Part shown: positions 3,147-23,320 of the stretch, in pieces
Layout: the number at the start of each line of letters is the position of its first letter
How positions within the stretch are numbered: position 1 is the stretch's first letter
Virus record (IMG/VR): IMGVR_UViG_3300046689_000827
Span: 1-33,295 of that record
DNA from: a virus
Strand: one strand, 5' to 3'
DNA length: 33,295 bases
Notes under the pieces: generated by a model
What the model was told of the DNA's origin: nothing
The model's input: only the letters and a program-made list of their open reading frames with translations
Database searches by the model: none
Program-made: the position numbers and the translations under genes

Positions 3147-3652
3147 ATGAGGCGCGCGTGGGCTAGTGCAGCGGCCCGGTCGAGGTAGACCGCCGGCAGT
3201 CGCGGGTCGCGTTGGGCATCGTTCCAGGATGGGATGGTCTCGACGTGCGCGAAGTCCCGGCGGATGGCGTCGAGGAGCACCACGCACGCATCGTCGGCAG
3301 CGCCCCGGGTTGGGGCTTCGGCCCGGATGAGGCCAATGAGGCAGGCGGCTCCTTGTTCGTCGCGCAGCTGTCCGGTGCACCAGCCGCCGGTCTCGAGCCG
3401 AAGGCGGGCTCGATGGAGGGTGGCGGCGATCGGGGTGCTGTACGGGCACGGCGCCGCCGTGGGGGTGAGCGGCAGCGGCGCGGTGATCTCGGGGATTGGG
3501 GTGGCGGGGATGTGGGCGGTGTTGACTTCGAAGGCGACGGCGGCCTCGTCGAGGCGGCCGGTCATGATCGCGCCCACCATGGCGAGCCTCGCGTCCAGGT
3601 CGAGTTCGACCGGGGCGGAGGTTCTCTTGCCGATGGTGGGCGCGGTCATCAT
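3143..3652 (-). CDS. DUF6197-like protein (169 aa)
   Basis: The C-terminal half fits the actinobacterial DUF6197 pattern as I know it: a helix, GGWCTGQLRDEQGAACLIGLI (about residues 89-108), then ETIPSWNDAQRDPRLPAVYLDRAAALA with the signature SWND at 142-145. The N-terminal 75 residues are Pro/Thr rich and probably flexible. The ATG overlaps the stop of the zinc-finger gene upstream. The molecular function of the family is unknown to me. A second member lies at 31155-31517. Confidence 0.75.
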   Translation of the reverse strand: MMTAPTIGKRTSAPVELDLDARLAMVGAIMTGRLDEAAVAFEVNTAHIPATPIPEITAPLPLTPTAAPCPYSTPIAATLHRARLRLETGGWCTGQLRDEQGAACLIGLIRAEAPTRGAADDACVVLLDAIRRDFAHVETIPSWNDAQRDPRLPAVYLDRAAALAHARLI

Positions 3653-4422
3653 GCGGCAGCCTTCGCCTTGCCAGTGCCCATGCATTCGTCGCAGACGATG
3701 ACGATCTGTTCGCCGCCGAATGCGCCGTGGAGTTTGCCGTTGCCTGCGCACTTCCAGCACAGGCCGTTGGCGATGGCCTTGCCGGGGTGCATGGCCTTGT
3801 TCTGCTTGATCCACTGGTCGTCGGTCATGCCGGAGTTGGGGACGACTTTCGACACGGCGGGTTCGGCCTGCTTGGCGGGCTGGGCTGTTCCTTCGGTGGC
3901 CTGCGCGTACCAGGCGCCCCCGACGGTCTTCCCGCCGTGCTTCTGCCGCTCATGGGTGCGCAGCGCCTTGGTGGCTTCCTTCGCGTCCCGGTAGCGGGGC
4001 TTCTCTTTCTTGCCGCAGGGGCACGCCCAGCCGACGAGGCCGGTGTTCTTGTCGGCGCCGAACCGGCTGGCCTTCCAGACCTCGAGGCGCGACACGCGCT
4101 CCTTGGTGGGCTTGGCGGGGCAGGGCTTGGAGCCTGTAAAGGAGCCGTCCTTGCCCTTGGTGAAGATCTGTCCGTTGCCCTGGCAGGTAGTGCACCCCTT
4201 GTGGGTGGCGCGGAGGATCGCGGCGTCCTTGCGGGAGCGGACGGTGTCGCCGCGGGTGTCGAGGCGGGAGACGGCGAACAGGACCATGCGGGCGCCGATC
4301 TGGTGGTGCAGCGGGCCCTTGCGCGGGATCTTGACGCGGCGGGCGGGGTGGTTGCGTGCGGACGGCTTGCGGCGCTTCGCCGGGGTGGTCCGGCGGGCCG
4401 GCTTGCGCTTCGCGGGCGGCAT
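3649..4422 (-). CDS. DnaJ-type zinc-finger protein with basic N-terminus (257 aa)
   Basis: Starts after GAGGAG. The first 35 residues are extremely basic (Lys/Arg/Pro), suited to nucleic acid contact. Three CxxCxGxG-type motifs follow at C77, C222 and C244, the kind found in DnaJ central zinc domains; further cysteines lie at C101, C134 and C136, and a CPCG...HERQKH stretch resembles another zinc ribbon. There is no J domain, so it is not a full co-chaperone. It is the first gene after the 11-bp repeat array, so it could act there, but that is only position-based. Confidence 0.75.
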   Translation of the reverse strand: MPPAKRKPARRTTPAKRRKPSARNHPARRVKIPRKGPLHHQIGARMVLFAVSRLDTRGDTVRSRKDAAILRATHKGCTTCQGNGQIFTKGKDGSFTGSKPCPAKPTKERVSRLEVWKASRFGADKNTGLVGWACPCGKKEKPRYRDAKEATKALRTHERQKHGGKTVGGAWYAQATEGTAQPAKQAEPAVSKVVPNSGMTDDQWIKQNKAMHPGKAIANGLCWKCAGNGKLHGAFGGEQIVIVCDECMGTGKAKAAA

Positions 4423-4472
4423 GAGAACTCCTCTTCAAGAACTTCGCATATATGGATCAATGGGGTGGCGGC

Positions 4473-4602
4473 GACCCGGCGGAAGCCCGGCGCGGACCCG
4501 GCGGACACCCGGCGACCTGCATCGATGGGTTGAACGTCCGCCGGGTCGGCGCCGGGGCTACGCCGCCCTCATGCCGGGGTCTTGCCGGGTCTGCGCCGGG
4601 TC
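4473..4602. repeat. Opposed arrays of 11-bp GACCCGGC units; candidate clt or origin
   Basis: Four plus-oriented 11-bp units start at 4473, 4484, 4495 and 4506, each with CCCGGCG at the same register (GACCCGGCGGA, AGCCCGGCGCG, GACCCGGCGGA, CACCCGGCGAC). After a 20-bp spacer containing ATCGAT come six minus-oriented units in exact 11-bp register: 4537-4547 (again GACCCGGCGGA), 4548-4558, a degenerate one at 4559-4569, 4570-4580, 4581-4591 and 4592-4602. The last four overlap the end of the TraB-like gene. The core differs by one base from GACCCGGA, which I recall as the TraB recognition repeat of plasmid pSVH1. An AT-rich box (CATATATG, 4446-4453) lies beside the array. Confidence 0.75.
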
Positions 4603-6639
4603 CAGGAGGCCCGCCGCGGCCCTCTCGACCTCGCTCCGCTTCCAGCCGCGCAGGTACTTCCCCTCGGGGCAGTCGGTGCGGTCCGCCTTCACGCCGGGTG
4701 CGTGCTTGCGCAGCCGGTTGGCAAGTGCGGTCGCGTCCACTCCGTCAACTCCCGCGGCGGCCAGGGCAGGCAGCAGCACCTCGCCTGTCGGCAGGAAGTC
4801 GCGGCCCTTGGCGTGGAAGGCGCGGAGCAGGGCGGCGATGAGCGGCGCGTCGTCGTGGCTGACTGCGTCGAGGCGTTCGGCGAGGTTGCCGCGCTGCCCG
4901 GCCGTCGTCAGGGTGGCGCCGGCCTTGAGGACGGTGTCGCTGTCCATGCGGTTAGCTCCGGCCTTGATGCGGTCGGGGACGGCGGCGGTGATCTGGTCGC
5001 GGGTGTAGCCGTTGAACTGGTAGCGGATGGCCCGGTTGAACGGGCCGCCCATGATCATGGCCTGGCCTGCGTCGTTGGCGACCGGGCCGACGGCGGGCTT
5101 CATCCGGTCCGCTCGCCATCCCTGCGCGCCGGCGCCGGGGCCGAAGGCGATTTTGATGTCTTCGAAGCGGCAGGCCATGAGGATGCGGTAAGCAATGATC
5201 AGGGCGATCGCGTCACCGAGAGCATCTGCGGTGGCTTCCTGACCGGCCATGATGAGGTAGATGCCGTACTGGCGGCCGGTGCGGAGGATGGTGATCGCGT
5301 CGGCCTTGCCCTTGGGGCTGAGCTGGATGAACTCGTCGATGTTGATGTACAGGTTGGGGTGCTTCTCGGTGGCGTGCCAGCGGTCGCCCATACCGAGTGT
5401 GGGCATGAGGTAGCGGCGGGCGGACACGTAGGAGAGGGCCTCCGCCAGCGCCTCCTCGCATTCTTCGGGAGTGCGGGCGCGGCGGGCCATGAGGTCGCCG
5501 AACTCGGCGAGCCCGCCCTTGATCGGGTCGAGGTCCCAGACGACGGCGTCTCGGCACGCGGTGAGCGCTTCGTTGATCGTGCGCAGCGCGCCGAGGGTCT
5601 TGCCCGCCCCCATGGCACCGACGATCAGTGCACAGAACCCGTCGAGGGTCAGCTCGAAGAGGCTGCCGTCCATGGCGCGGCCCATGGCGATGACATCGTG
5701 CACCGACAGGGAGCGGGGGGCGTGCACGGCGGGCCGAGGCATGTCGGCGAACGGGTTCGACTGGACGAGGCGGACGACGATCCGGGACTTGTCCCGCGCA
5801 TCCGGCTCGATCATGAATCCGCCGTCGGGCAACCCGAGGTGGGACTCAAGCTGGTCGGCCTTGCCCTGCACCCCGCCCGGGGTGGAGCCCTTGAGGACGA
5901 CCTCAAGCTCCCAGCCCCAGTCGTGGCGGGCGATCATCTTTATGTCCCGGTAGTCGGCACCCTCGGCGAACAGGGCACGCCCGAGGCAGTCGGCCGCCTG
6001 GCCCCCGCTGGTTACCCACGCGATCGGGTACGGCTCCTCGCCTTCCGGGTTGTCCTGGTCGGCGATCGCCAGCTGAGGTGCAAGCCCGGGGGCGTTGGCC
6101 CGGTAGCGGCCGTACAGGGCGATCCCCGTGAATGTGGCGAGCGCAAGGGTGGAGGGCGTCATCCACCACGAGTCGGCGGCCGTCAGACCCGCGTACTTCA
6201 CGAGCGCCCACCAGCCGGCGAAGTTCAGGCCCGCGGTGATGCCAGCGGCCCAGCCGAGAAGCTTCCAGCGTGCGCGGCGTTCGGCCTTGTTCTGGTTCCA
6301 GTCGGACTTCTTCTGGAGACCCCCAACGGCTTCCTGAAAGTCGTGGGTGCGGATGTATCGCCAACCGAGGACGCCGACGGCGCGGGCGCCGACACCGAAC
6401 CAGCGCATCATGGTGCCGCTGCCGCGAGCGGTCAGTCCGATCGCACGACCGGTGACCGAGGCAACGACCATCGCGGCCGAGCCCGCCTTCCGCAGGACGG
6501 GCAGGCGCGGCTCGTAGGGGACGACGATGCCGGGCGCGATGTCCTCGCCGGACAGGTCGTCGGGCACGTGCAGCTCGCCGGGGATCACCTTGGTGAGGTC
6601 CCAGTCGGCGGGGAACTCGGGGTTCGTGTCGAGGCTCAT
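4558..6639 (-). CDS. TraB/FtsK-like conjugative DNA translocase (693 aa)
   Basis: Predicted membrane-bound ATPase that would pump double-stranded DNA between mycelial cells, as Streptomyces TraB proteins do. N-terminal region about 1-120 is soluble; two membrane segments lie near 126-145 and 160-177. The FtsK/SpoIIIE motor has Walker A GAMGAGKT at 341-348 and Walker B YINIDEF at 431-437, followed by RTGRQYGIYLIMAGQ (sensor region). The last 120 residues resemble a winged-helix DNA-binding domain (LLRAFHAKGRDFLPTGEVLLPALAAAG...). ATG overlaps the stop of the SpdB-like gene. No relaxase is seen, consistent with single-protein double-strand transfer. A cell-division FtsK is unlikely given the plasmid-like context. 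Confidence 0.85.
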   Translation of the reverse strand: MSLDTNPEFPADWDLTKVIPGELHVPDDLSGEDIAPGIVVPYEPRLPVLRKAGSAAMVVASVTGRAIGLTARGSGTMMRWFGVGARAVGVLGWRYIRTHDFQEAVGGLQKKSDWNQNKAERRARWKLLGWAAGITAGLNFAGWWALVKYAGLTAADSWWMTPSTLALATFTGIALYGRYRANAPGLAPQLAIADQDNPEGEEPYPIAWVTSGGQAADCLGRALFAEGADYRDIKMIARHDWGWELEVVLKGSTPGGVQGKADQLESHLGLPDGGFMIEPDARDKSRIVVRLVQSNPFADMPRPAVHAPRSLSVHDVIAMGRAMDGSLFELTLDGFCALIVGAMGAGKTLGALRTINEALTACRDAVVWDLDPIKGGLAEFGDLMARRARTPEECEEALAEALSYVSARRYLMPTLGMGDRWHATEKHPNLYINIDEFIQLSPKGKADAITILRTGRQYGIYLIMAGQEATADALGDAIALIIAYRILMACRFEDIKIAFGPGAGAQGWRADRMKPAVGPVANDAGQAMIMGGPFNRAIRYQFNGYTRDQITAAVPDRIKAGANRMDSDTVLKAGATLTTAGQRGNLAERLDAVSHDDAPLIAALLRAFHAKGRDFLPTGEVLLPALAAAGVDGVDATALANRLRKHAPGVKADRTDCPEGKYLRGWKRSEVERAAAGLLDPAQTRQDPGMRAA

Positions 6640-7979
6640 GACGGGTCCTTCTGGGCGGCGTTCTTGGCGGTGATGGCGGCCTGCTTGCGGGCGGCGTCCA
6701 CGAACTTCGGGGTGTCGCCTGCGCGTCGCGTCCCGCGCACCGGCGGACCGGTAACCGAGCCCCTACGGCCAGTAGGGGGGACTTGTGGATTCACCTGCGC
6801 GTCTTGGATCTTCCACACGGTCTTTTCGGGGGCGTCGGCGCGGGCGTCGAGCATGCGTCGCGCCGCCGCATTGCGGAGCTGCTGAGCCTCCGGCGAGTCG
6901 CCCGGATCGGTGCCCTTCACGTCCTTGTGGGCGCGCCGCCAGACGGCATCGGTGACGGTCGTCTCGCCCAGTGCGGCGGCGAGCCTCAGGGCGTGATCCC
7001 ACACGTCCGGGAACTTCTCCGCGCGGTCCTTCGCGAGCTTCTCCAGCTCCTCTCGAAGCGCCTTCTCTCGGTGCGCCTCGCGCTCCGCGGCGAAGAGCTT
7101 TTCGGCGGCCGTTTCCGTGGCGATCCGCTTCGCTTCCCTCGCTGCCGCCCTCCGCTCGCGGCGGGTAAGGACACCGTCGCGGCGACGGATCCGGCCGTGC
7201 TCGTGGAGGTCCCACACGCCGGGGCCGGCGAGCGAAGCGAAGGCCGTGCCGATCGCCGTCGCCGGGTCGAAGTGGGAGAGGCCGTGTGACAGGTTCACCG
7301 CGGCGGCAACGAACGCGAGCAGCCAGGCGATGAGCCGGTAGTGCCAGTGCGGCCGGTGGTCGTCGACTGCCGCCGCGGCGCCGCGGAGTACGACCCAGGC
7401 GCCGCCTTCCAGCATCACGGGGGCGGCGAGCAGCCATCGGGCGTGCGGGTTGTAGAACGCGGACATCTGCACAGGCAGTGCCACGATGGCGCAGGCAATC
7501 GCGAACCCGAGGGCCGCGTTCCGCCACGACTTGGCGGACTTCCCCCGCTTCTTGTCCTGTGTGGCGGCGGAGAGCTGTTCGGCTGCGTCCTGTTCGCGCG
7601 CTTTCTCGCGTGCCCGGTTGGCTTCGTCCCGCTTGCGGTTGGACTCGGCGATGCGGGCTTCGCTGGCAGCGTCGTCCTCGCGGGCCCGGCGCTCGGCCTT
7701 GTCGTTGAGCAGCCGCTGCTTGCGGGCTTCTTCCTCGGCCTTGACGATCTCGGCCTGGGCTGCGGCTTCGGCCGCAATGCGAATCGCCTCGGCTTCGGCC
7801 TCGCCGCGGGCGCGGATCGCGGCAGCCTCCGCCGCAGCAACAAGGTCGGCCCGGTCGATGGCGGGCTCGGGCTGGGGGGTGCGCCGCTCCTCGGGGTCGG
7901 CGGTGATACGCCAGTCCGCGAACTGCAGGGGCGTGCGCGGCCTGGTGCTGCCGTTGGCCTTGGGCGGGCTGGCGGTCAT
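6636..7979 (-). CDS. SpdB-like plasmid-spread membrane protein (447 aa)
   Basis: Start after GAAAGGA. Residues about 35-145 form a long alanine/glutamate/arginine coiled coil (AEAEAIRIAAEAAAQAEIVKAEEEARKQ). Four hydrophobic segments follow at roughly 150-175, 181-205, 213-235 and 243-262, with WLLAAPVMLEGGAWVV resembling the DUF2637/SpdB membrane core. A second coiled coil and a basic C-terminus complete it. In Streptomyces plasmids Spd proteins partner TraB in intramycelial spread (pock formation). Here the gene overlaps the TraB-like gene by ATGA, which strongly supports the pairing. Confidence 0.75.
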   Translation of the reverse strand: MTASPPKANGSTRPRTPLQFADWRITADPEERRTPQPEPAIDRADLVAAAEAAAIRARGEAEAEAIRIAAEAAAQAEIVKAEEEARKQRLLNDKAERRAREDDAASEARIAESNRKRDEANRAREKAREQDAAEQLSAATQDKKRGKSAKSWRNAALGFAIACAIVALPVQMSAFYNPHARWLLAAPVMLEGGAWVVLRGAAAAVDDHRPHWHYRLIAWLLAFVAAAVNLSHGLSHFDPATAIGTAFASLAGPGVWDLHEHGRIRRRDGVLTRRERRAAAREAKRIATETAAEKLFAAEREAHREKALREELEKLAKDRAEKFPDVWDHALRLAAALGETTVTDAVWRRAHKDVKGTDPGDSPEAQQLRNAAARRMLDARADAPEKTVWKIQDAQVNPQVPPTGRRGSVTGPPVRGTRRAGDTPKFVDAARKQAAITAKNAAQKDPS

Positions 7980-9287: not shown

Positions 9288-9491
9288 TCAGCCCTCGTAG
9301 GTCCCGTTCGTGTACGCGTTGTCGCGGGCGACGGAGTCGGCGATGTGGGCGTGAACGGCGTCGAGGCCGCCGACAGGCAGGTGGCCGACGATGGCGCGGA
9401 CGTCGTCGCGGATCTCCTGGTCGGACTTGCCGAGGGCGTCACCGGCCTTGACGGCGAACTGGACCTTGTCGGCGATCTTCTCGATGGACAT
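9288..9491 (-). CDS. Small hypothetical protein (67 aa)
   Basis: GGAAGGAA precedes the ATG. All-helical prediction: MSIEKIADKVQFAVKAGDALGKSDQEIRDDVRAIVGHL, then DAVHAHIADSVARDNAYTNG. It carries a recognisable helix-turn-helix-like alternation but no clear HTH. No family assigned. Confidence 0.75.
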   Translation of the reverse strand: MSIEKIADKVQFAVKAGDALGKSDQEIRDDVRAIVGHLPVGGLDAVHAHIADSVARDNAYTNGTYEG

Positions 9492-9519
9492 GCGGTTCCT
9501 TCCGGATCAGCTGGTCGGT

Positions 9520-9537
9520 GGTGGTGCGCGCCCCGGG
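9520..9537. repeat. Intergenic 18-bp direct repeat, copy 2
   Basis: Identical to 9223-9240. It stands upstream of the 67-aa gene ending at 9288 and can pair with CCGGGGC near 9571-9577 to form a long-loop hairpin. Confidence 0.5.
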
Positions 9538-9634
9538 TCGCCTTCGCGGCTACGTCGGTGATGACCGGACCGGGGCTGGGCCGTGGCGGCGGGGCCGCGG
9601 GGGAACGAATCCCACCGCCACGGGGTCTAGGGGC

Positions 9635-9838
9635 TCAGGCGACGTCGCCGAGGCTCGCGCCGAACAGCTCATCCGTCAGAGACGGGGCGTCCTTGTTGGC
9701 CCGGTCGTAGGCCGCAGCCTCGGCCCGCAGCGCCTTCCGAGTCCGCGAGCTGCGGGCGGTCAGGTAGCGGGAGATCAGGCCGGTGCGGTACTCGGCATCC
9801 GACGACGGGGCGGAGGTGATCAGGGTCAGAACAGACAT
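9635..9838 (-). CDS. Small hypothetical protein (67 aa)
   Basis: GAAGGG lies upstream of ATG 9838. The protein (MSVLTLITSAPSSDAEYRTGLISRYLTARSSRTRKALRAE...) has a basic central helix (RYLTARSSRTRKALRAEAAAYDRAN) and an acidic end. The basic helix suggests nucleic acid contact, but no family is recognised. Confidence 0.65.
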   Translation of the reverse strand: MSVLTLITSAPSSDAEYRTGLISRYLTARSSRTRKALRAEAAAYDRANKDAPSLTDELFGASLGDVA

Positions 9839-9887
9839 GGGGGTGCCCTTCGAGGTGGTCAATCAGGAATGGGGGTGGGGTGGGGAA

Positions 9888-9928
9888 CCGCGGCGCGGGA
9901 CGGGGGGGGGTTGGTGTCCGCGCCGCGG
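9888..9928. terminator. GC-rich hairpin downstream of the small-gene operon
   Basis: CCGCGGCGCGG (9888-9898) and CCGCGCCGCGG (9918-9928) form a perfect 11-bp stem with a 19-nt loop containing a nine-G run. It lies just past the stop of the 25-aa gene and probably ends the minus-strand operon that starts at 10888. Confidence 0.55.
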
Positions 9929-9941
9929 CGGTCTGGGGGGT

Positions 9942-10019
9942 CTAGCGGGTGGGGTGCTCGCTGCGGTCGTTCTTCTCGCGCAGCTTGCGGAGCATCTCTT
10001 CGTAGTCGGCGGGGCTCAC
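9942..10019 (-). CDS. Micro-protein (25 aa)
   Basis: A 25-codon frame (MSPADYEEMLRKLREKNDRSEHPTR) whose GTG start overlaps the TGA of the upstream gene as GTGA, with good coding bias and a single charged helix. The junction matches the other genes of this operon, which is why it is called despite its length. Function unknown. Confidence 0.55.
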   Translation of the reverse strand: MSPADYEEMLRKLREKNDRSEHPTR

Positions 10020-10183
10020 GACGCCTCGCCCTCGTCCGTGACGACGAGGAACCGGTCGCCGGGCAGGTCCTGCACGACGGTCGCCGGGATGCCCTGGTCG
10101 CGGAACTGCTGCGCCTGCTCCTCCGCCGGCCAGGAGCCGCGCGGGTGGCCGGCCTGGGTGGAGGCGAGGATCTCGCGGGCCAT
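10016..10183 (-). CDS. Small hypothetical protein (55 aa)
   Basis: ATG overlaps the stop of the upstream gene (TGATG). MAREILASTQAGHPRGSWPAEEQ is followed by a short alpha/beta segment (AQQFRDQGIPATVVQDLPGDRFLVVTDE). No family recognised. Fourth gene of the operon led by the excisionase-like protein. Confidence 0.65.
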   Translation of the reverse strand: MAREILASTQAGHPRGSWPAEEQAQQFRDQGIPATVVQDLPGDRFLVVTDEGEAS

Positions 10184-10368
10184 CACGCCGCTCCGATCAG
10201 GTCGAGGCGGCCGGCGGCCTGAAGCTGGCAGCGGCACATCGCCATCTCGTCGCGGACGTACTCGCAGCCCTCGTAGTCGCCGGACGCGGCGAGCGCCCGG
10301 TAGTGGACGGCGGCCGACTGGTAGCGGGAAGCCGCCTCCAGCGGGGTAGTGGGGGTCGCGGTGCTCAT
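10183..10368 (-). CDS. Small helical protein (61 aa)
   Basis: Overlaps the upstream gene by ATGA. N-terminus MSTATPTTPLEAASRYQSAAVHYRAL resembles that of the next protein upstream (MTTATPTKPPTPNSHYAAMRRYQQA), so the two may be duplicated relatives. Contains DEMAMCRCQL with two cysteines. Function unknown. Confidence 0.65.
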   Translation of the reverse strand: MSTATPTTPLEAASRYQSAAVHYRALAASGDYEGCEYVRDEMAMCRCQLQAAGRLDLIGAA

Positions 10369-10673
10369 GCCGACACCGCCGATCGCACGGCACGGAGGCC
10401 ACGGACGGTGATGCGGAGGAGCGTGCCCGGACGGGACGCCCAGAACTTCTCGGCCCGCTCACGGCGCTGCGCAGCGACACAGTGCGCCTCAGCCAGACGG
10501 AAGTACTCGTCCTGCTGCGCCCGCAGCTCGGCGAACTCGCCGGCCGCAATCGCACCGACCGTGCGGCGGACCGACAGCTGCACCGAAATGCTGCTCGCCG
10601 CCTGCTGGTAGCGGCGCATCGCGGCGTAGTGGGAGTTCGGGGTGGGGGGCTTGGTGGGGGTTGCGGTGGTCAT
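10365..10673 (-). CDS. Helical hypothetical protein (102 aa)
   Basis: Overlaps the excisionase-like gene by ATGA. After a Thr/Pro-rich start it is predicted fully helical (AAMRRYQQAASSISVQL..., FAELRAQQDEYFRLAEAHCVAAQRRERAEKFW), with a basic C-terminus (LLRITVRGLRAVRSAVSA). It looks like a coiled-coil or DNA-associated helper; no family was recognised. Confidence 0.7.
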   Translation of the reverse strand: MTTATPTKPPTPNSHYAAMRRYQQAASSISVQLSVRRTVGAIAAGEFAELRAQQDEYFRLAEAHCVAAQRRERAEKFWASRPGTLLRITVRGLRAVRSAVSA

Positions 10674-10888
10674 GCCGCCTCCTGGTTGAGGGCGAGCAGT
10701 TCGTCTACGACGCTGCTCGGGATTCGGATCGCTCCCCCGCGCCGGCTTTCGCCTTCAACTCGGGGCTGGCCGTACTGGATCGACGGCAGGTATCCGCTGG
10801 CAGCCCAGCGGTAGACCGTCGGCTTGGAGACCCGCAGCAGGTCTGCGGCCTCCGCCACGGTGAGCAGCTTTTGAGCCGCAGGCAGCAT
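10670..10888 (-). CDS. Excisionase-like HTH protein, MerR/HTH_17 type (72 aa)
   Basis: GGAGAA precedes ATG 10888. The sequence LLTVAEAADLLRVSKPTVYRWAASGYLPSIQYG is the classic HTH_17 pattern (TVxEAAxxLxVSxxTVYRWxxxGxLP) of excisionases and small regulators in Streptomyces elements; the C-terminus (IRIPSSVVDELLALN) fits too. In pSAM2-type elements such a protein acts as Xis, but no integrase is present here, so it may instead be a transcription factor. It leads a five-gene operon from a promoter with a GntR-type operator. Confidence 0.8.
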   Translation of the reverse strand: MLPAAQKLLTVAEAADLLRVSKPTVYRWAASGYLPSIQYGQPRVEGESRRGGAIRIPSSVVDELLALNQEAA

Positions 10889-10930
10889 CTAGTTCTCCAA
10901 TCCAGGAGGTGGGTTCCTCTGACAGAGATG

Positions 10931-10967
10931 ACTGTGACAGGTCTCTTGAGAGGTATCAACCCTCTCG
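10931..10967 (-). promoter_or_regulatory. Promoter with GAGAGG/CCTCTC operator for the excisionase-like operon
   Basis: On the minus strand TTGATA (10959-10954) and CACAGT (10936-10931) are 17 bp apart. Overlapping the -35 box is an inverted repeat, GAGAGG (10948-10953) with CCTCTC (10961-10966). Nearly the same 38-bp block, with matching spacing, is found at 12436-12472 ahead of the GIY-YIG gene. The repressor is probably the GntR protein encoded between them. Confidence 0.7.
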
Positions 10968-11004
10968 CCTGATCGAGCCGCTCTCGTATGCCCCGCGGCC
11001 CTGC

Positions 11005-11033
11005 TTGACGTGGGCTTATGGTTGGAGAAATTG
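11005..11033 (+). promoter_or_regulatory. Possible promoter for the UTRA/GntR pair
   Basis: TTGACG (11005-11010) and AAATTG (11028-11033) are 17 bp apart, placing the start near 11040, about 35 bases before the GTG of the UTRA gene. The -10 box is poor. GGTTGGAGAAATTGCTAG here resembles, on the other strand, GGATTGGAGAACTAG at 10890-10904, possibly a second paired site. Confidence 0.35.
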
Positions 11034-11073
11034 CTAGACGCCTCAGGAGAAGTCGCGCACTGGAGGAGCTGGA

Positions 11074-11610
11074 GTGACGGAGAACCGATGGGCCGGCTCA
11101 TCGACGCCGTACATCGAGAGCGGCCAGGGTGACGCCTGGGGTAAAGAGGCGGCCCAGCAAGGCCGCTCGGGAACCCAGCGCATCCTCAGCGCAGGCCAGG
11201 AGCCAGCACCGCTCGCGGTCGCCGAAGCGCTGGAGCAGCAACCCGGCACGCCCGTCGTAGCCCGACAGCGATTGATCCTGCTCGACGGGCAGCCGATCGA
11301 AGTCGCGCGCTCCTATTGGCCCGTCAACGTCGCCGCCGATACACCCCTGGCCGGCACCGGCAGGGTCCGCGGCGGCGCCGTGACCCTCCTCGCCGAGCTC
11401 GGCTACAAACCCGGCGCGGTCACCGAGGACGTCCAGACCAGGCCCCCGACGAAGGAGGAAGCGGAAGCCCTGCAACTCACCGACAACAGCGAATGGGTAC
11501 TGGCCCTAACTCGCACGATCGCAACCCCCGACGGGCGCCCCTACGAGGTGTCAGTCATGGTCAGCCCCGGCCGCATTGGGCGGCTCCACTACTCAATGAA
11601 GGTCGACTGA
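11074..11610 (+). CDS. UTRA-only protein lacking a DNA-binding domain (178 aa)
   Basis: GGAGGAG precedes GTG 11074. Residues about 35-178 match the UTRA effector-binding domain of the GntR/HutC family: APLAVAEALEQQPGTPVVARQRLILLDGQPIEVARSYWPVNVAADTPL, then RVRGGAVTLLAELGYKP and a C-terminal sheet (VLALTRTIATPDGRPYEVSVMVSP). No winged-helix domain precedes it, and only 185 bp separate it from the divergent gene, so none has been lost to a nearby frameshift. It ends one base before the full GntR gene. It could bind ligand or dimerise with the neighbour; function inferred. Confidence 0.75.
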   Translation: MTENRWAGSSTPYIESGQGDAWGKEAAQQGRSGTQRILSAGQEPAPLAVAEALEQQPGTPVVARQRLILLDGQPIEVARSYWPVNVAADTPLAGTGRVRGGAVTLLAELGYKPGAVTEDVQTRPPTKEEAEALQLTDNSEWVLALTRTIATPDGRPYEVSVMVSPGRIGRLHYSMKVD

Positions 11611-22381: not shown

Positions 22382-23320
22382 TCAGTTCCAGTCCTGGTTG
22401 TAGTCGGAGTCGTCTGCGTGATTGCGGTGGGGTTCGTAGCCGCCTACGGCGTGCAGATGGCGGCCGGGCGGCGTGTCGGGCTCGTCGTCGTAGCAGCCGT
22501 TGTTGAGCCAGGTCGCCGGGTACTTCGTGTACTTGGGTTCCTGGTCTTTGCGCTCTTGGGCGTAGGCCTTGGCGGCGTCGACCATCTGCTGGGGCTCTGC
22601 GCCGCGTTCGATGGCGGCGGTCCAGGCCTTCTTGGCGGCTTCCTTGTCCCGTCGCTTCGGGTAGGTCAGCCAGAAGGCGCCGAAGGCCTCGAGGTGGTGA
22701 TCTTTCTTCTCGCTGCCGCTCTTGGTCTGAACCGAGGCGACCGGCTTCTCGGGCTGGTTCGCGACGGCTGCGGGAGAAGAGTCTTCTAGTAGTTGTTTGT
22801 CTGACGGTTGTTGGTGGTTAGGGCTGCGTTCCGTGCGTGACGAACGGACTTTAAGTGCGTGACATTCGTCGGTCACGGACTCTGCGTGCGTGACAGTCAC
22901 GCCTTCTACGTCCGTGACGGTCACGGACTCTGCGTGCGTGACACCCTTCGAGCGGGACCGGCGCTTCCGCTCCGCGGCGGCGGCACGGAACTCGTCCTCC
23001 TCGCGCTCGAGGTTGCTCCAGTCGGTGGCCGGGCGACGCAGTTCCATCGCGAGCTTGTAGCGGGTGCGTCCTTCACGAGTTCCGTCCTTCGCGATCAGTC
23101 CGGTCTTCTCGAGCCGGCGCAGGGCGCGCTGAACGGTGGCCCGGTCGTAGCCGGTGCGGTACTGGATGCGGAGCACGGAGGGATGCGCGTCGATGCCGGT
23201 CGGACTGGCGTGCTCAGCGAGCGCCTGAAGGACGTGCCGGGCAGTCGTGTCCGGCTTCCCCTTCTCGGTGCGCGGCATGGGCGCCTGGTCCATGGCCCAC
23301 GTGACGGCCTCAGTACTCAC
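22382..23320 (-). CDS. Winged-helix replication initiator with in-gene iterons (312 aa)
   Basis: GTG start after GAAGGAAG. Residues 20-95 form a winged helix (TARHVLQALAEHASPTGIDAHPSVLRIQYRTGYDRATVQRALRRLEKTGLIA). The middle has an octapeptide repeat (residues about 127-150: VTHAESVT repeated with variation), which is exactly where the DNA iterons lie. The C-terminal 100 residues (LEAFGAFWLTYPKRRDKEAAKKAWTAAIERGA...) match the phage replication-protein FWxxYPKK domain. Placement before DnaC- and DnaB-like genes supports an initiator (a lambda-O-type arrangement). Confidence 0.82.
   Translation of the reverse strand: MSTEAVTWAMDQAPMPRTEKGKPDTTARHVLQALAEHASPTGIDAHPSVLRIQYRTGYDRATVQRALRRLEKTGLIAKDGTREGRTRYKLAMELRRPATDWSNLEREEDEFRAAAAERKRRSRSKGVTHAESVTVTDVEGVTVTHAESVTDECHALKVRSSRTERSPNHQQPSDKQLLEDSSPAAVANQPEKPVASVQTKSGSEKKDHHLEAFGAFWLTYPKRRDKEAAKKAWTAAIERGAEPQQMVDAAKAYAQERKDQEPKYTKYPATWLNNGCYDDEPDTPPGRHLHAVGGYEPHRNHADDSDYNQDWN
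22833..22942. repeat. Iterons inside the initiator gene; candidate replication origin
   Basis: Forward units GTGCGTGAC begin at 22833, 22855, 22886 and 22934, with a variant GTCCGTGAC at 22910. Inverted partners GTCACGGAC lie at 22872 and 22920, and a variant at 22896. From 22871 the DNA is three tandem 24-bp units; units one and three share 25 identical bases (22871-22895 and 22919-22943). Lambda O, by comparison, binds iterons within its own gene. The encoded protein shows an eight-residue repeat as a by-product. Confidence 0.75.

Follow-up and report, generated by a model that had tools for sequence, protein, structure and literature searches.

Actinomycetes are, to our knowledge, peculiar in transferring double-stranded DNA by means of a single FtsK-like protein, a transfer in which an uncut circle gets through. 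Two reports describe for plasmid pSVH1 a clt/TRS with a repeated 8-bp motif (GACCCGGA) and its TraB, an FtsK-like motor with a C-terminal winged helix (PMC5133688, PMC3583192). TraA of pWTY27 is reported to protect a clt whose start lies inside the 3' end of traA (PMC3583192), and for pSAM2, a model element, no clt has been described (PMC9513070). In the chromosomal systems, the winged helix of FtsK gamma reads polar 8-bp words (KOPS) and loads the hexamer with direction (PMC2680272), and for SpoIIIE at least two hexamers are proposed, one per arm of the circle (PMC4423119). Circular Streptomyces plasmid-phages of about 86-90 kb are represented by pSLE1 and pZL12 (PMC4487206).

The window, meaning the whole stretch of DNA analyzed here, corresponds to a 33,295-base virus record, a fragment of about 33 kb, which encodes RecT, an exonuclease, a DnaB helicase, a helicase loader and an initiator-like protein (gene 22382-23320). 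Three tandem 24-bp repeats (GTCACGGACTCTGCGTGCGTGACA) within this last gene, at 22872-22943, are likely a replication origin of the lambda type. At the end of a traB-like gene, the window carries two opposed arrays of short units with the following features:

4473-4516, plus strand: plus block of four 11-bp units with a CCCGGC core, downstream of the traB-like gene (direct reading, shuffle test)
4473, plus strand: unit GACCCGGCGGA
4484, plus strand: unit AGCCCGGCGCG
4495, plus strand: unit GACCCGGCGGA
4506, plus strand: unit CACCCGGCGAC
4514-4520, minus strand: GCAGGTC box on the edge of the spacer, partly shared with the innermost unit (comparison of near relatives)
4517-4536, no strand: 20-bp spacer between the opposed blocks, containing ATCGAT (direct reading)
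4537-4602, minus strand: minus block of six 11-bp units, one degenerate (direct reading)
4547-4537, minus strand: unit GACCCGGCGGA
4558-4548, minus strand: unit GCCCCGGCGCC
4569-4559, minus strand: degenerate unit AGGGCGGCGTA
4580-4570, minus strand: unit ACCCCGGCATG
4591-4581, minus strand: unit GACCCGGCAAG
4602-4592, minus strand: unit GACCCGGCGCA
4438-4464, minus strand: conserved A+T-rich block ATTGATCCATATATGCGAAGTTC / ATTGATCCATATATGTGAAGT, between the array and the next gene

Direct reading bore out the initial annotation on the composition of the array (four plus and six minus units, one degenerate, around a 20-bp spacer with ATCGAT), on its exact 11-bp register, which corresponds to about one turn of the helix, and on the threefold occurrence of the core unit, GACCCGGCGGA. 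Minus units three to six double as the final codons of the 693-aa gene (stop 4558-4560). The information in the unit is concentrated at positions 3-9, much alike in both blocks, and the conserved part of the unit consists of a word core of about 7-8 bp and a 3-bp gap. By itself, GACCCGGC is mildly enriched (11 in the window, 5.9 expected). Same-strand pairs of CCCGGC at 11-bp distance occur six times in the 33 kb, all six inside the array, as against a mean of 0.11 and a maximum of 2 in 200 dinucleotide shuffles of the window; chance, which the initial annotation had itself named as a ground for rejecting its reading, is thereby excluded. Nine copies of CCCGGC lie within 130 bp, compared with a maximum of six in the shuffles and three in the rest of the window, and a scan of the window at lags 11 and 22 ranked the array first (z 5.7; runner-up 3.7). 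The corresponding site ranks first at these lags in a related 88-kb record and third in a related 93-kb record. The A+T-rich block is kept in near relatives although their words differ, and is possibly the promoter region of the next gene.

The genes around the array are arranged as follows:

6636-7979, minus strand: 447-aa membrane protein, just upstream of the 693-aa gene, related to the DUF2637 protein beside the pFP1 traB-like gene
4558-6639, minus strand: 693-aa FtsK/TraB-like DNA translocase (Walker A, profile and structure matches)
4600-4846, minus strand: segment within the span of the 693-aa gene
3649-4422, minus strand: next gene, 257 aa, with a Lys/Arg-rich start and a weak zinc motif of the DnaJ type; near relatives share this gene order

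The 693-aa protein consists of a motor domain (about residues 205-575), with the Walker A motif GAMGAGKT at residues 341-348, and a predicted winged helix (about residues 598-679). It matches phrog_12531 (E 4e-89), and its full-length model matches FtsK motor structures (Foldseek, E 7.5e-15). A profile search found FtsK, where phmmer against the PDB had returned chance-level matches only, and a Pfam search of the translocase returned no match. The AlphaFold2 model gives the C-terminal domain a winged-helix topology with a pLDDT of about 90 there; a comparison of this predicted winged helix with solved FtsK gamma domains returned no significant structural match. The protein thus combines the Walker A motif and motor fold of FtsK/SpoIIIE translocases with a C-terminal winged helix, the latter as a prediction. 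Since it reaches only 32 bits with the NCBIfam TraB model NF041214, below the curated cut-off of 800, we call it TraB-like: of the annotated TraB-like gene with a C-terminal DNA-binding domain, an FtsK-type motor and a predicted winged helix stand, and the relationship to TraB is a distant one.

The search for the same array beside traB in related elements covered ten viral loci and two genome loci that encode relatives of the translocase; the latter two came from an alignment query of genome contigs, a first scan having given no locus. Relatives of the translocase are present in 33 of 394 Streptomyces genomes and in 29 of 396 family genomes. All ten near viral relatives, and the two genome relatives as well, have an array that follows the stop of the traB-like gene. 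Its geometry in the near relatives is mostly fixed (exceptions L010, L023 and L029): the six units start at the Asp codon in the LLDP motif of the C-terminus, a GCAGGT box stands at +82 and the opposed units begin at +86; where the box is at +82, the spacer is identically 20 bp long. The opposed, helically phased layout, which the initial annotation set apart from a simple direct-repeat clt, is no peculiarity of this locus; it recurs after many Streptomyces FtsK-like genes.

The 11-bp register recurs with it. Of the 17 near relatives, 16 have their strongest repeat lag at 11; this lag also tops the mean z in every set of loci, and the peak was replicated in 24 loci fetched later (mean z 2.49; coding control -0.75). 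In a survey of 71 loci, same-strand words were spaced by 11 bp 118 times, by 12 bp 30 times and by 10 bp 18 times. Spacing is looser in the distant set, where it ranges from 10 to 12 bp and a further peak stands at 21. The commonest word beat every shuffle in 50 of the 71 loci, 48 of which have at least two copies per strand; in about 20 loci, mostly distant, the word count was not above all shuffles. The words themselves differ by clade (CCCGGC, CCCGTCTA, CCCGTCC, CTGCTC, GTGACG and GATCGG). Two loci, L044 and L083, mix CTGCTCAG and the palindromic CTGATCAG in one array. No array was found in Stanwilliamsviridae lytic phages of about 130 kb (L054 NootNoot, L055 LukeCage), which encode a related FtsK-like translocase; the motor alone does not imply the array.

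Across the 17 near relatives, and with array-encoded residues excluded, word distance correlated with winged-helix distance (r 0.84) and hardly with motor distance (0.05). The partial correlation of word with winged helix given motor was 0.79 (p 0.0002), in a Mantel permutation that takes no account of phylogeny and draws on a small number of independent word changes. Given both motor and downstream gene it was 0.82. Individual loci illustrate the same pattern. L009 differs from L008 by 2% in the motor and 10% in the downstream gene, and has a winged helix and word of the L025 type; its DNA identity drops between about -300 and +105 around the stop and recovers on both sides. Winged helix and array were here exchanged as one cassette, with both flanks unchanged. 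L023 and L029 share a common word type and have mutually nearest winged helices, with motors that differ by 48%. Linkage can explain a joint exchange of winged helix and array: the two adjoin, and one recombination tract can move both, an objection that the two flank controls reduce without removing. What linkage by itself does not explain is that word and winged helix remain matched from locus to locus where the motors differ.

Since the words change in step with the winged helix across relatives, the array is most likely the docking site of the motor. We put at roughly 75% the probability that it serves the cognate FtsK/TraB-like translocase, encoded immediately upstream on the same strand, as a clt-like site of recognition and loading, read through the winged helix. 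With a clt it shares the clustering of short repeats on the translocase-encoding element, and among the 17 near relatives its word co-varies statistically with the winged helix, as would be expected of a clt-like site. The clt-like site proposed in the initial annotation is partly supported by this co-variation and by translocase homology; it has to be read with a distant TraB relative and a layout not unique to the locus. We infer from these data that the winged helix would bind the array, load hexamers and take part in transfer. The word read by the C-terminal winged helix would be specific to the element and about 8 bp long; with 3-bp gaps in between, the sites would share one face of the DNA, where several subunits could bind side by side and assemble motors; and the facing blocks would let motors of both orientations load at one place, one per arm of the circle, with double-stranded DNA pumped from both sides. 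FtsK words load with direction, and for SpoIIIE one hexamer on each arm is proposed; the opposed half-arrays may represent a compact form of this plan.

The GCAGGT box behaves differently from the words, being kept in most near relatives while the words change. Of 71 loci, 49 have GCAGGTC no more than 230 bp from the stop (background 12%), with the variants GCAGGTA in the CCCGTCTA clade and GCAGGCA in L026. A second, inverted GCAGGTC copy often stands 85-107 bp further in plasmid and chromosomal relatives. A fuller scheme, previously undescribed in the open literature, can be offered only tentatively: a docking site shared by Streptomyces phages and plasmids, at which two opposed phased half-arrays might load two motor rings back to back and a closed circle might be pumped, relaxase-free, as a loop through two pores, winged helix and array forming one specificity cassette that evolution exchanges as a whole and GCAGGT being read by a second factor.

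Other readings of the array were weighed against the loading site. An operator or a partition site for some other protein, for example the basic 257-aa protein or the GntR regulator, would fit the position of the array just before the 257-aa gene, and arrays of 11-bp repeats are known as centromeres (parC of plasmid R1). We consider it unlikely, as word distance follows the winged helix and not the downstream protein (partial r for the downstream gene given the winged helix, -0.31).

An RNA hairpin, with the opposed arrays as its stem and either termination of the traB-like operon or protection of its mRNA as its role, would sit suitably at a gene end, and the region's RNA folds better than its shuffles do (z -3.6). 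The consensus pairs, however, fall mainly in word cores and are broken at the inter-word gaps, paired changes are mostly word swaps, and a hairpin needs no 11-bp direct-repeat register inside each arm. A hairpin is there, but the array is not followed by the T run of an intrinsic terminator, and an Rfam search of the array region returned no family. From the pair distribution and the direct-repeat register, a hairpin alone was judged improbable, and the stem is better seen as a by-product of the inverted words.

A replication origin, with the units as its iterons and the A+T-rich block as the place of melting, is a very remote prospect, weaker than the initial annotation had allowed: repeats do stand near such a block, and iterons occur elsewhere in pWTY27 and the pFP plasmids (PMC3583192), but across elements the array follows translocase genes and not initiator genes, the triple 24-bp repeat is a better origin candidate, the initiator-like gene lies about 18 kb away rather than adjacent, and the GC skew of the window rises through the locus with no inflection at 4.5 kb.

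The loading site, as the preferred reading, also has to be placed in its element. The 93-kb record with L010 encodes a large terminase, portal, major head and tape measure proteins and two integrases, and the 88-kb record with L007 a portal and a terminase nuclease domain; with these genes, the two records represent temperate tailed phages or plasmid-phages. The carrier of the array is a phage relative and not a known conjugative plasmid. The site also suggests the presence of a conjugation-like module in some temperate phages of Streptomyces. By size and type, the relatives of the window (84-93 kb records with phage genes) are likened to pSLE1 and to pZL12, whose size we take to fall within about 86-90 kb; kinship with them is no more than a lead. 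A 93-kb relative, L067, has an RNA ligase gene beside a polynucleotide kinase gene at 9290-11477, a possible RNA repair pair. So recognizable a layout should allow the recognition word to be predicted for many translocases with nothing but the sequence. Natural exchanges of the cassette, as between L008 and L009, would serve as ready-made specificity tests.

Compared with the described systems, the locus shows both likeness and difference. As the initial annotation stated, its core departs from the pSVH1 motif by one base, the last (GACCCGGC against GACCCGGA), and so falls outside a strict pSVH1 TRS definition; compared by description, the locus further differs from pSVH1 in its opposed blocks, strict 11-bp phasing, fixed spacer and GCAGGT box, and its protein differs from pSVH1 TraB in scoring 32 bits against the TraB cut-off of 800. 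pWTY27 is similar in that its site starts in the 3' end of the translocase gene and has direct and inverted repeats, with a TraA of 688 aa; it differs in its repeats (TGACACC, CCCGCCC), and the available part of the source describes no 11-bp register (PMC3583192). pIJ101 shares an FtsK-like Tra, a clt with repeats and a weak profile match; no comparable array follows its tra, after which spdA begins at once. KOPS/FtsK and SRS/SpoIIIE differ in having their words spread along the chromosome, whereas here they are clustered at one locus. The pFP1-type traB loci resemble the window in gene order and layout, with a DUF2637 gene, an FtsK-like gene and then opposed CTCTAC words with inverted GCAGGTC boxes, and differ in having another word, two boxes and blocks that meet between the boxes. 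Array and translocase together are a variant of the TraB/clt type.
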